From Lampris incognitus (lineage: Eukaryota; Chordata; Actinopteri; Lampriformes; Lampridae): a DNA stretch of 64,000 nt. The position numbers and the translations under genes are program-made. Location of the stretch: positions 22,634,404 through 22,698,403 of the forward strand of contig NC_079224.1 of the NCBI RefSeq assembly GCF_029633865.1, written 5' to 3'. Below the pieces are notes generated by a model. It did not search any database. It was not told the DNA's origin and saw only the letters and a list, made by a program, of their open reading frames with translations. Shown here piece by piece: positions 431-56,296 of the stretch; position 1 is the stretch's first letter, and every line of letters begins with the position of its first letter.

Positions 431-881
431 AGAACCCGCGAAATCAGTTGGTCAGACAGTAGTTCACAGTATGGCTGTACGCATTAAACCTGGGCTTCTC
501 CAGTAAAGTTCCACATTTGTTTAATAAGTTGTCTGCCTCTTTGTATTACACACAATAACATTACAATGGGGGGGGGATACATCTGTTGCCATTTTACAGT
601 GCTGTGATTGCAACATTCTCTAATCCTCTGTGAATAGTACACATGGCCTATGAAACTCTAGTTAAAGGTCACACACATATTTGCATATAAAACTCGTCGT
701 TGGTTTTAGTTTGCAACTGTATTGTACTGTATTGATTATAAGGATGAGGATACCTGCAGTTAGTTTAGAGTGAAGATGAAACGTGTCTGTCAATAAATGT
801 ATCCAGATGAACTGATTCAACCTTCTTTGAATAACACTAATAGTGGCTCTGTTTGATATTGGTGTGTTCGTATTTGTGACA
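431..881. other. no gene; possible LTR remnant
   Basis: No coding exon is recognisable. The stretch has an AATAAA at 792-797 and ends immediately before TTGGTGTCAGAAGTG, which looks like a primer-binding site, so it may be the 3' part of an LTR. It does not resemble the 150-bp LTR at 999-1148. A G8 run lies near 566. Confidence 0.3.
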
Positions 882-1148
882 TTGGTGTCAGAAGTGTGAT
901 GGAGCGACCGTAAGGCCATCGGAAGCGTATGCACCCTGAGGCGTGAAGTAGCTGATATGCTTAAGCGCAGGGACACGCTTCCCGAAGGAGGGGGGTAGTG
1001 TAACGTGCATGGATAAAAAGACACGCTGGGTGGTGTGTCTGACCCTTTAGTCGAGCGGTTAGCGATGTCTCCTGCGGTGCGGGCGATATGGGTTCACTTC
1101 ACGGCCGCGGCAGTTCCTGTGGTTGCGTTGTCCCCCGAATTCGCTACA
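882..1148 (+). mobile_element. TRIM-like miniature LTR retroelement, 5' LTR missing
   Basis: Three parts are visible: a primer-binding-like TTGGTGTCAGAAGTG at 882-897, about 100 bp of non-coding internal sequence, and a purine run (GGAGGGGGGTAG) leading into a 150-bp LTR at 999-1148 that begins TGTAACG and ends CGCTACA. The LTR contains a tRNA-like segment with a good A box (TAGTCGAGCGG) and a weaker B box (GGGTTCACTTC). The internal and LTR sequences match the three-LTR array at 52,107-52,757 on the other strand. No matching LTR lies left of the primer site, so this copy is truncated or fused to another element. Its end is only 39 bp upstream of the CCP exon at 1188. Confidence 0.65.
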
Positions 1149-48146: not shown

Positions 48147-48744
48147 ATAATTACACAAAGTATCACCACATGATTATTATTATTATTTTTATTGCCAACA
48201 TTTTTATTTCATTTTGTTATATCATCAGGAAACGCTTATAGTAGCCCCTCCTTGTTTGACACCATTTCCTGTTAGTAGCCCCTCCCTGTTGTGACGCCAT
48301 TTCCTGTTAGTAGCTATAAAACGTATGCCCCCCCCCCCCGACTTCTGCCTCTTTCCCGCTTTGCACGTGTAGGAAGAGGTGTGTGTTCATTTTGTCTGCC
48401 CCTGTAATTTATTTTATCCATTCCTAATGTGTCTTATGTCTAATGTGGGTCCCGATTCTTGCGTAGGCTACAGCAGGAGCTGATCTGACGTTTTCTGAAA
48501 CCTGTCCTGTTTTGTTTATATGCGACAGGTATGTTTTATTTCTTTTTGTAAAAAAAAATTGTGTTGCTAGCTACGCGCTCTTTTCCGTTTAGGACATGTA
48601 GAAAGAGGCTACAGCAGGAGCTGATCTGACGTTTTCTGAAACCTGTCCTGTTTTGTTTATATGCGACAGAATACAGATCCCATGCATGAGAGAAGTTGTC
48701 CTGTCTTTCCTACACAACGCAATGAAAAAGTACACCGGTCACAC
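48147..48744 (+). repeat. 5' LTR with internal 63-bp duplication
   Basis: Contains GGCTACAGCAGGAGCTGATC... twice (48,466-48,528 and 48,607-48,669), separated by 78 bp beginning GTATGT and containing TTTTCCGTTTAG. A TATA-like TATAAAACG precedes a C13 run near 48,330. The same architecture is in the 3' LTR. Confidence 0.75.
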
Positions 48745-50774: not shown

Positions 50775-51363
50775 ATAATTACACAAAGTATCACCACATG
50801 ATTATTATTATTATTTTCATTGCCAACATTGTTATTTTATTCTATCATTAGGAAACGCTTATAGTAGCCCCTCCTTGTTGTGACACAATTTCCTGTTAGT
50901 AGCCCCTCCCTGTTGTGACGCCATTTCCTGTTAGTAGCTATAAAACGTATGTCCCACCTGACTTCTGCCTCTTTCCCGCTTTGGACATGTAGGAAGAGGT
51001 ATGTGTTCATTTTGTCTGCTCCTGTAATTTATTTTATCCATTCCTAATGTGTCTTATGTCTAATGTGGGTCCCGATTCTTTCGTAGGCTACAGCAGGAGC
51101 TGATCTGACGTTTCCTGAAACCTGTCCTGTTTTGTTTATATGCGACAGGTATGTTTTATTTCTTTTTGTAAAAAAAATTGTGTTGCTAGCTACGCGCTCT
51201 TTTCCGCTTAGGACATGAGGAAAAAGGCTACAGCAGGAGCTGATCTGACGTTTTCTGAAACCTGTCCTGTTTTGTTTATATGCGACAGAATACAGATCCC
51301 ATGCATGAGCGAAGTTGGCCTGTCTTTCCTACACAACGCAATGAAAAAGTACACCGGTCACAC
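50775..51363 (+). repeat. 3' LTR with internal 63-bp duplication
   Basis: Partner of 48,147-48,744; the duplicated block lies at about 51,087-51,149 and 51,227-51,289. Confidence 0.75.
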
Positions 51364-52106
51364 CAAGTCGAGCCTTAGCTTGACAGTCAGCATGGTGATC
51401 TAGAAAGAAGATAACAGGTCCTGAATTATGTTTAGCAGCATCTACCAAAAAAAATATACAAGAAAATAAAGAAAGAAATCTTAATTAAACCTTAATAGAA
51501 GACAACTTTCCAAATAATGACTTTATATCATTGAAACTACTAGATAGGTAACTAAAATGTGTTTGGCCATTCAGGTCATCTTCTTTCAAATTAAAAACAA
51601 AAGTGTATATTCTATATATGTTGTGTATAGAAATGCAAAAATTCATGGAAGTATAAAATTTGGGTACCAGAGAAATCAAAATTTGTTATTTATCCCCTTT
51701 GAGCATTTTTTTCTTTTACATTGTGCTCTGAAATTTATATATTTTTTTCTAGTTTTTCGTTGATTTATTCTCAGTCTGGTGCAGCATAATGTAGGTGGGA
51801 GCTTTCCAACTAAATTTCAACATCAGCATCAAAAAGGTTTGAAACTGTCACAAAAATAAGAGTACCTACAAATCTACACCATAGACAACAACACAGAGCT
51901 ACTTTGTCATATGTCGGCATGTTTAAAAGGCTCCCACTATCATCCACTTTTGTTTAATTGTGCTCTAATGTAAATAATAAAAAAAATTCATGAAAAAAAG
52001 TTATTGCGTTTCGGACAACGCAGTTATAAATGTTTGCATCGAGTCAACCATAATTACAACTAAAGCAGAGAATGAGTATACAGTAGTTAAATAATGCATA
52101 TGATAT
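51364..52106. other. no feature seen
   Basis: AT-rich sequence; no recognisable gene, repeat family or long open frame with support. Confidence 0.5.
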
Positions 52107-52757
52107 TGTAGTAAATTAGGGGGGCAGCCTGGGAACCGTCGCCAAAACCAGGGCGCGAGCCCGTATTTCCCGCACCGCGGGCGACAACGTTAACCAGTCT
52201 CTAAAGGATCCGACCCCTTACCCAAGGCCCAACGTGTCTACTTATTCGTGCATGCTACACTACCCCCCTCTTTCGGGAATGTCCCCGCGTTTCAGCATCA
52301 GCTCCGTCACGCCTCTTGGCGCACGCGCTTCCTATGACCTCACGGTCTCACCATCCCACTTTTGACACCAATGTTGCGAATTCGGGGGGGGGGGGCAGCC
52401 CGGCTGGACCATCACAGCCAGGGTGCGAACTCGTGTATTCCGCACCGCGGGCGACAACGTTAACCAGTCGACTAAAGGGTCCGACGCGTTAACCAAGGGC
52501 TAAGCGAGTCTATTCATTCATGTACGTTACACTACCCTCTTCCTTCGGGACAGGGCGTCCCCGGCCAGACCGTCACAGCCGAGGATTCCACTTCTGACAC
52601 CAATGTAGCGAATTAGGGGGGCGGCCCGGGAACTGTCGCCACAGCCGGGACGCGAACCTTTATCTCCCGCACCGCGGGCGACAACGTTAAGCAGTCGATT
52701 AAAGGGTCCAACCCCTTAGCCATGGGCCAACGTGTCTACTTATTCGTGCACGCTACA
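52107..52757 (-). mobile_element. tandem TRIM array: three LTRs, two miniature interiors
   Basis: On the minus strand: LTR (52,757-52,604), primer-like TTGGTGTCAGAAGTGG, about 72 bp, purine tract, LTR (52,531-52,372), TTGGTGTCAAAAGTGGG, about 112 bp, purine tract AAAGAGGGGGGTAG, LTR (52,259-52,107). LTRs are 153-160 bp with TGTA..TACA-type ends (CAACA at the middle one). The whole array is flanked by a 4-bp ATAT duplication. Each LTR carries a tRNA-like block: A box (TAATCGACTGC, TAGTCGACTGG), a CCCGC/GCGGG stem, and a T-arm such as GGTTCGCGTCCC. No coding capacity, so it must be mobilised by another element. Confidence 0.75.
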
Positions 52758-52879
52758 ATATCAATTATTTACATTGACATTTGAACATTTAAAAAACGCA
52801 TTCAGGTTAAAGATCCATGACATTTCAGAAGAAAACATAGTTTGGCACAGAAAATGAAATATTGTGGTGATACACAAAT

Positions 52880-53215
52880 GGGGGGTCCTCCCTATAGTCC
52901 CCGGGTCCTATAGTCCCCGGGTCCTATGTTCCCCGCTTTGTATTTTCGAAAGGGTCCTATGTTCCCCCCCGATCGGGGAACATAGGACCCTTTCGAAAAA
53001 AAAGGGTCCCATATTCCCCGTTTTCCCCTAAAAAGGTCCTATAATCCCCGTTGCAATAGACACCGGGGAACATAGAACCCTCTTTTGGAAAAATGGTCCT
53101 ATATTCCCCGCTGTTTCCAGGGGAACATAGGACCTTTTTCCAAATAAAGGGTCCTATATTCCCCGCTATTACCAATCGAGGAACAAACCGGGGAACTTAG
53201 AACCCTTTTTGCAAA
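52880..53215. repeat. left TIR: hairpin motif array
   Basis: About 12 monomers of the GTCCTATRTTCCCC type in alternating orientation. One perfect inverted pair (TTTTCGAAAGGGTCCTATG... with loop near CCCGATC) spans about 52,943-53,000 with 25-bp arms. Confidence 0.8.
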
Positions 53216-56029: not shown

Positions 56030-56296
56030 CTGACCGGGGAACATAGGACCTTTCTTTATAAAAAGGGTCCTATGTTCCCCTAGGGCACCCGGGAAACATA
56101 GGACCCTTTTTATAAAGAAAGGTCCTATGTTCCCCTGCACATACAAAACGGGGAACATAGGACCCTTTTGGGGAAAAGTGGGGAATATAGGGCCCTCTGT
56201 ATACAAAAAGGTCCGATATTCCCCGGTCTCATACAAAGCGGGGAACATAGGACCCGGGGACTATAGGACCCGGGGACTATAGGGAGGACCCCCCAC
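56030..56296. repeat. right TIR: hairpin motif array
   Basis: About 10 GGGGAACATAGGAC monomers in alternating orientation. A 35-bp inverted pair with one mismatch (AGGACCTTTCTTTATAAAAA... around TAGGGCACC) spans about 56,046-56,130. Confidence 0.8.

Follow-up and report, generated by a model that had tools for sequence, protein, structure and literature searches.

What kind of element lies at positions 52107-52757 of the 64,000-nucleotide stretch of Lampris incognitus DNA analysed here (the window), which polymerase would transcribe it, and what would move it? A sequence-only reading had seen at this locus a tandem TRIM whose LTRs embed a tRNA-like Pol III promoter. Our analysis indicates that the element is very probably a Helenus-type TRIM copy recombined from two elements, with a tRNA-derived internal Pol III promoter, that was mobilised in trans by a Gypsy lineage. 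The features of the window on which the argument draws are the following, where PBS stands for primer-binding site and PPT for purine tract.

52604..52757, minus strand: 5' LTR (sense), 154 bp, TGTAGCG...CGCTACA
52691..52701, minus strand: box A of the 5' LTR, degenerate TAATCGACTGC (the family box A is TAGTCGACTGG)
52648..52658, minus strand: box B of the 5' LTR, GGTTCGCGTCC, from the sequence and box-pair scoring
52588..52603, minus strand: PBS TTGGTGTCAGAAGTGG, complementary to the 3' end plus CCA of host tRNA-Leu(CAG)
52532..52603, minus strand: short interior of the second subfamily, PBS to PPT, 72 bp
52532..52543, minus strand: purine tract GGAAGAGGGTAG ahead of the middle LTR, from the sequence
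52372..52531, minus strand: middle (shared) LTR, of a different subfamily, 160 bp
52464..52474, minus strand: intact box A TAGTCGACTGG of the middle LTR, from the sequence and box scoring
52422..52432, minus strand: box B of the middle LTR, GAGTTCGCACC, from the sequence and box scoring
52356..52371, minus strand: second PBS TTGGTGTCAAAAGTGG, one mismatch to tRNA-Leu
52260..52371, minus strand: typical family interior, 112 bp, of the same kind in many copies
52260..52273, minus strand: purine tract AAAGAGGGGGGTAG ahead of the 3' LTR (the partner Gypsy tract is GGAGGGGGGCAG)
52107..52259, minus strand: 3' LTR (sense), 153 bp, box A damaged
52103..52106, no strand: target-site duplication ATAT, left, from the sequence
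52758..52761, no strand: target-site duplication ATAT, right, from the sequence
879..1148, plus strand: second copy, 5'-truncated, interior with PBS and PPT, LTR at 999-1148, then ATAT

Read on the minus strand, the element starts with a 154-bp LTR, followed by a PBS and the short interior, continues with a 160-bp LTR, the second PBS and the 112-bp interior, and closes with a 153-bp LTR. The three LTRs of 153-160 bp first reported are real, as are the two tiny interiors, both of them having a primer site and a purine tract, within a single ATAT duplication. The 5' LTR contains the CCCGC/GCGGG stem with its 3-base loop, as described, together with the T-arm-like stretch GGTTCGCGTCCC, of which the middle and 3' LTRs carry variants. 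The further claim that each LTR holds a box A has to be narrowed, since box A is intact only in the middle LTR (TAGTCGACTGG), while it reads TAATCGACTGC in the 5' LTR and a shortened TAGAGACTGG in the 3' LTR. The window copy is old, damaged and probably dead.

How did the three-LTR array arise? It had been ascribed to LTR-LTR recombination producing tandem copies, and the single target-site duplication around the array agrees with that idea, but the array probably involves two elements rather than one. The outer LTRs are 85.6% identical to each other, while the middle LTR is 80.8% and 81.5% identical to them. Since the middle LTR and its own short interior look like a different subfamily, two different elements probably recombined, in place of a plain unequal exchange within a single element. 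The simplest reading is that DNA of the other subfamily's element recombined into an LTR of the resident element. By eye, the short interior (52532-52603) resembles the interior of locus L090 and part of that of L087. For Cassandra, too, arrays have been attributed to LTR-mediated recombination (PMC7215508).

On the 5' side of the second, truncated copy (879-1148) we considered a Pol II LTR with TATAAAA and AATAAA, and with it the idea of a chimera. We dropped this idea because a genome search assigns these signals to another, unrelated repeat of high abundance. Matches to that repeat stop for the most part around window position 830; a few reach 831-840. Window 601-830 forms part of this repeat (3,962 first-look candidates), and several of its 40 scored places sit in inverted pairs. 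The TRIM has inserted at nearly the same place of the repeat in L019, L020 and L032, and in L062 as judged from one side; these entries lie near a GTATTGTACTGTATTG stretch and mark a possible insertion hot spot. Elsewhere in the window, positions 1-380 resemble by eye a decayed Gypsy reverse transcriptase stretch, and the two pieces of it that were tried gave no Pfam match at 1e-3. Positions 52891-53174 and 56035-56283 hold clusters of the palindromic motifs GGGTCCTATGTTCCCC / GGGGAACATAGGACCC, in direct and inverted repeats with periods of 16, 55 and 89. Two separate short arrays 2.6 kb apart (48239-48314 and 50862-50938) consist of a nearly identical 35-bp unit, TAGTAGCCCCTCCCTGTTGTGACAC[CA]ATTTCCTGT.

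The window copy belongs to a large family. A 21-mer spanning the LTR end and the PBS occurs exactly 1765 + 1773 = 3,538 times in the 1.48-Gb genome, against 0 occurrences of the reversed 21-mer. A genome search with the element itself gave at least 60 matches, with the best 40 of 7,047 first-look candidates scored. Our sample consists of loci picked by BLAST similarity to the window copy (L001-L040) and of the first 30 of the 3,538 places, all on contig 1 (L041-L070), to which we refer as unselected junctions. The 80 LTRs analysed below are those whose two ends could be located; partial LTRs were left out, and 78 of the 80 entered the alignment. Most of the similarity-fetched loci show the order LTR-interior-LTR, and several, such as L002, L004, L007 and L008, hold arrays of three to five LTRs. 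LTRs start with TGTAGC or TGTAAC and end with GCTACA or variants of it. Two-LTR copies measure about 420 bp, below the 1000 bp that bounds a TRIM, and are non-coding, with PBS and PPT at the ends of the interior, so the assignment to TRIMs stands. A purine tract before the next LTR was found at 14 of the 30 unselected junctions, always ending in TAG (GGAGGGGGGTAG in 4, GGGGGGGGGTAG in 2), and the search found none at the other 16. Scans of viral contigs for relatives gave 0.

Integration of the TRIM duplicates 4 bp. For the 32 elements with both outer ends the duplication is exact in 14, has one mismatch in 11 and more in 7. Two of these rows (L005 at 1771 and L012 at 644) follow GGGTAG and are probably inner boundaries; without them the numbers are 14, 10 and 6 of 30. 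The exact duplications are ATAC (5), ATAT (4), GTAT (3), ATAG (1) and TTAT (1). The left 4-mer fits NTAN in 28/30 and RTAY in 18/30 cases, compared to a flank background of 6.5% and 1.7%, and the right one in 27/32 and 25/32, an excess which argues that the TRIM prefers TA-centred sites. In five of the ten one-mismatch duplications (L004, L021, L027, L032 and L036) the last base is G on the left and C or T on the right, for instance ATAG / ATAT; it looks as though integration had taken along the G that closes the purine tract. The LTRs of 22 two-LTR copies diverge from each other by 2.6% to 25.3%, with a median of 11%, which implies that the copies are mostly old. We also observed two TRIM PBS junctions (L058/L059, G000:C1:9607039-9607222) that lie about 160 bp from each other on opposite strands and read outward, with their LTR sides abutting. 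At L004:1287-1340 there is a UnaL2-type LINE 3' stem-loop scoring 48.8 bits, where the gathering score is 55.

The primer-site-like sequence first noticed, and the proposal to compare it with tRNA 3' ends, lead to a definite tRNA. The family PBS, TGGTGTCAGAAGTGGGAT, is complementary at 18 of 18 nt to the 3' end plus CCA of host tRNA-Leu(CAG). Its final GAT is present at 29/30 unselected junctions, the preceding bases having been part of the search pattern, while the first PBS of the window copy continues with AAT. The gene-strand 22-mer of this tRNA occurs 39 times in the genome, and ARAGORN reads Leu(CAG) in three of the six regions fetched.

We now turn to the promoter. Scored with a box A/B consensus, the best pair of boxes falls at LTR positions 57-67 and 100-110, separated by 32 nt, in 56 of the 80 LTRs; the two boxes of a standard tRNA have the same gap between them. 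The mean score of the pair is 16.5 over the 80 LTRs, compared to 13.98 (sd 0.89) in 1,000 dinucleotide shuffles, of which 0.8% reach the observed median, and the antisense strand, at 14.8, lies slightly above the shuffles. At the unselected junctions both boxes pass the cut-off in 16 of 30, with exactly 32 nt between them in 11, and are not kept in 14. One subfamily matches box A at 9 of 9 positions, reading TAGTCGAGCGG. Conservation is 0.960 for box A and 0.931 for box B against 0.895 for the rest of the LTR, a modest excess, the two box windows ranking 8 and 34 of 141.

The LTR stretch was also compared with 10 host tRNA genes (Thr, Lys, Ala, Cys, Leu and Val), a subset of those in the host. 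In sense orientation the similarity exceeds that of shuffles for Thr(CGT) (z 4.1), one Val (3.1) and Thr(AGT) (2.6), is weak for the other tRNA-Val, Ala(CGC) and Lys (1.8, 1.8 and 1.7) and is not above shuffles for two Cys, Leu and Ala(TGC) (-0.2 to 0.8), z values that serve only as a guide because a mean over related copies is set against single shuffles. On the antisense strand no mean exceeds that of the shuffles by more than one standard deviation. Judged from the best two of the 80 alignments for each tRNA, similarity to Thr extends from the end of box A to past the T arm, and that to Val starts upstream of box A and reaches into box B or slightly further. Alignment is weak for the window's own LTRs, which score 16-19 for Thr and 19-25 for Val, where the shuffle mean is about 15. 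At the level of the family, boxes, spacing and alignment agree with the tRNA-derived LTR boxes that characterise Helenus.

The LTR does not encode a tRNA, an idea that we rejected: the check proposed earlier, a tRNA model run on the LTR, did not recognise the fold. Rfam matched no tRNA in window 51900-52900 (E up to 10) or in the seven loci L002-L008 (E up to 5), and ARAGORN called none in the LTRs of the window or of L001-L008. The LTR box B has a C at what we take to be the position of A58 in a tRNA. Nor did Rfam give a 5S match over the same window range (E up to 10) or in L002-L008 (E up to 5). With boxes at tRNA spacing scoring above shuffles, tRNA similarity and no 5S match, the earlier suggestion of a tRNA-like rather than 5S-like LTR promoter is borne out. 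TATA and AATAAA are found in 0/80 TRIM LTRs, and runs of four or more T in 4/80, where shuffles have about 30. We considered these absences as evidence for Pol III and rejected them as such, since the LTR of the partner Gypsy family described below (4 copies) lacks all three. The boxes, their spacing and the tRNA similarity together suggest that the TRIM LTR may be transcribed by Pol III.

Does the RNA fold? Close upstream of box A lies a hairpin, GGGT-CGG-ACCC, followed by TTT (75 of 80 LTRs), whose pairing is kept in 91% of cells, with no compensatory pair. A covariation test over four LTR hairpins gave 8 double-change pairs against 5.8 in shuffles (65/500 reach 8) and a covariation of 0.209 against 0.195 (1/500). 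The principal compensatory change, from C-G to U-A in 19 of the 78 LTRs, may have arisen once and been inherited by a subfamily, and these numbers hint weakly at a conserved RNA hairpin. A bolder extension, offered with still more reserve, would have the hairpin and TTT end the RNA in the 3' LTR and so set a repeat region of about 15-20 nt.

Where would the enzymes come from? A pattern search for the PBS without the TRIM interior behind it yielded 782 sites. The first 30 of them, on contig 1 (L071-L100), comprise, sorted by eye, 12 decayed TRIMs and 18 other elements, and nine of these 18 form one partner Gypsy family with the same 18-nt PBS. Its LTR (605-655 bp in 4 copies) begins with TGTAGTGGG and ends with CCGCGACA. 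A frame resembling gag, at most 452 aa long, matches Retrotrans_gag at 2e-4, just below the cut-off, and an open piece of 499 aa from one copy matches RVT_1 (1.2e-32) and RT_RNaseH (2.8e-33), its closest solved chain being the Ty3 reverse transcriptase (3.9e-88). The tract GGAGGGGGGCAG directly precedes TGTAGTGGG, as read fully in two copies, and occurs at at least 15 distinct plus-strand places among the matches listed, for a pattern that required a purine start. Insertion sites fit NTAN in 9/9 and RTAY in 5/9 cases, and all six duplications checked are exact (GTAT, GTAT, ATAT, GTAA, ATAC and CTAC). By its gag, its Ty3-like RT-RNase H and its 4-bp duplication the partner is a Ty3/Gypsy element. 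Its PBS-to-PPT distance is about 2.8 kb at G000:C1:11709572-11712376, C1:114273337-114276183 and C1:116605123-116607959 and 6.0-6.7 kb in others; the shorter copies are perhaps a recurrent, internally deleted, non-autonomous form.

The TRIM and this Gypsy clade have in common the 18-nt tRNA-Leu PBS, a G-rich tract ending [C/T]AG (YAG), the LTR tip TGTAR and TA-centred 4-bp sites. A sister family (L097/L098) has the same PBS, GTAT ahead of both LTRs, a Retrotrans_gag match of 3.2e-6, over the cut-off, and the PPT GGGGGGGGGTAG at 4 places, for a pattern that required the G-run. A third family with this PBS, known from two copies (L071 and L100), has CCAG and CCTG before the LTR, and these two control copies imply that sharing the PBS is not enough to confer the target preference. 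A control pattern with a tRNA-Lys-type PBS gave 0 sites, and another control PBS gave 4 sites, from which no usable family boundary emerged. Past the PBS, neither the LTR nor the interior of the TRIM matches the partner loci (E up to 0.01). The partner LTR matches box B at best at 6 of 9 positions (4 copies), and the spacer ahead of the PBS is T in the TRIM and AG in the partner.

Of eight partner LTRs compared with L075, six show 97.9-99.5% identity and two about 92%. The sampled partner is much younger than most of the sampled TRIMs, and so too young to have moved them; the link is one of lineage, and the driver of the old TRIM insertions would be an ancestor or relative of the partner. The signals in common suggest that this Ty3/Gypsy clade may have mobilised the TRIM. 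More specifically, this could be a vertebrate TRIMp3 for which one genome also supplies the autonomous driver by name: the TRIM, templated by Pol III, would be a parasite of this particular clade, having copied only its cis signals and swapped the whole LTR promoter for a tRNA-like one. We see the case for this specific reading as evenly balanced; it is made less probable by the fact that the exact tract GGAGGGGGGTAG is present at only 4 of the 30 unselected junctions.

Could these observations be explained otherwise? The element might be an ordinary Pol II TRIM, started from a TATA-less promoter, with boxes that are a captured SINE or tRNA relic, or chance. Such a reading would accommodate the lack of any tRNA model match, the modest excess in box conservation, the 14 unselected junctions, out of 30, that do not keep the two boxes, and a presumably Pol II-transcribed partner Gypsy that is likewise without TATA and AATAAA. 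It sits less well with the exact tRNA box spacing seen in 56 of the 80 LTRs and at 11 of the 30 unselected junctions, the subfamily with a 9-of-9 match to box A, the similarity to tRNAs on the sense strand and the same layout in Helenus elements across phyla (PMC10886601), and we consider it unlikely, if still worth weighing.

That the TRIM arose by internal deletion from a large Gypsy family sharing its LTR, an origin that many TRIMs have, is in our view quite improbable. The TRIM LTR matches the PBS-adjacent LTR in 0 of the 18 non-TRIM loci (from 30 of the 782 sites), and the partner LTR is 605-655 bp long and lacks box B, even though PBS, PPT and LTR start are common to both and the Gypsy family itself has copies of about 2.8 kb from PBS to PPT. 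The sole LTR match comes from L077, where a separate fragment of a TRIM, consisting of LTR plus interior (L077:1067-1271), lies within another same-PBS element and on the other strand. We give hardly any credence to a tRNA-derived SINE or MITE-like repeat, dispersed by a LINE or a transposase, that mimics LTR-interior-LTR. The tRNA-like head, small size and high copy number would suit it, but TG...CA ends, with 7-bp inverted termini in the window 5' LTR, a tRNA-Leu PBS, a PPT, exact 4-bp duplications and LTR-interior-LTR order in most similarity-fetched loci would not, and no A-tail or LINE tail was noted in the flanks read.

The preferred reading, a Helenus-type TRIM with a Pol III promoter and a Gypsy helper, would work as follows. 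Boxes A and B of the 5' LTR would recruit Pol III, giving a short RNA. Host tRNA-Leu(CAG), complementary to the 18-nt PBS, could anneal there and start first-strand DNA, while the G-rich purine tract ending in TAG would prime the second strand. Reverse transcriptase and integrase would be supplied in trans by the same-genome Ty3/Gypsy lineage with which the TRIM shares its signals, and integration would leave the TA-centred 4-bp duplications observed. Recombination through the LTRs between elements of two subfamilies would then have produced the three-LTR array, as its mosaic make-up suggests.

If so, a SINE-like Pol III promoter has been joined to LTR-retrotransposon replication, and promoter and replication machinery would behave as interchangeable modules. 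A single genome with both the TRIM and a candidate driver sharing its tract, LTR tip and site preference makes the dependence of one on the other testable. For annotation, thousands of tRNA-like LTR copies could pass for SINEs or tRNA pseudogenes. Indeed, the TRIM resembles tRNA-derived SINEs (SINE2) in its box A/B head, small size and lack of coding capacity. Those SINEs are moved by LINEs and differ in having no LTRs, PBS, PPT or fixed 4-bp duplication.

Closer relatives are found among TRIMs. Cassandra, to which the sequence-only reading had likened the element, likewise has a Pol III promoter in short LTRs, is non-coding, forms arrays of three and more LTRs and is presumed to be mobilised in trans (PMC7215508); the literature calls its autonomous drivers unknown. 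The idea of a Cassandra-like way of working is upheld, with the difference that Cassandra is a plant element with a 5S rRNA promoter, whereas the window TRIM is tRNA-like and without an Rfam 5S match. Ajax, a nemertean TRIM with a partial 5S promoter, follows the same TRIMp3 logic but is 5S-derived and has a 5-bp duplication (PMC10886601).

The possible vertebrate novelty, on the other hand, gives way, since the kind has already been described, fishes and tandem arrays included, as Helenus (TRIMp3), which Kojima (2024) defined as TRIMs with a tRNA-derived LTR (PMC10886601); a meeting report restates that account. According to that paper Helenus occurs in coelacanth, sturgeon, paddlefish and ostariophysan fishes, its layout is reported from six animal phyla, fungi and a lycophyte, and the zebrafish family LTR-11_DR has 5,575 LTRs, 2,618 interiors and tandem arrays (PMC10886601). 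Animal Helenus has 4-bp duplications, with a PBS to His, Leu or Lys tRNA in vertebrates, and is tied to a Gypsy driver through PBS similarity and duplication length, differing LTR bodies being expected as a Pol III promoter is unsuited to a full-length driver (PMC10886601). Kojima aligned fish Helenus to tRNA-Val, reported disagreeing tRNAscan-SE isotypes for many families, i.e. no functional tRNA, quoted an 18-bp repeat region for Cassandra and stated that Pol III transcription of Helenus has not been validated experimentally (PMC10886601).

The window TRIM is, by its described features, a new member of Helenus, LTR-11_DR being compared by description. It is a non-coding TRIM with box A/B LTRs, a PBS to a tRNA 3' end (tRNA-Leu(CAG), 18/18 nt), a PPT, a 4-bp duplication, thousands of copies, arrays and a Gypsy presumed driver. 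In the published main text we found no case in which a vertebrate TRIMp3 agrees with a named driver of the same genome in PPT, LTR tip and target site. The window TRIM differs from Helenus as described in that PPT, LTR start and target preference are also common with the Gypsy clade, within one genome. What is new here is a candidate driver, residing in the same genome as the TRIM, that shares with it the PBS, PPT, LTR start and target sites, and not the LTR body.
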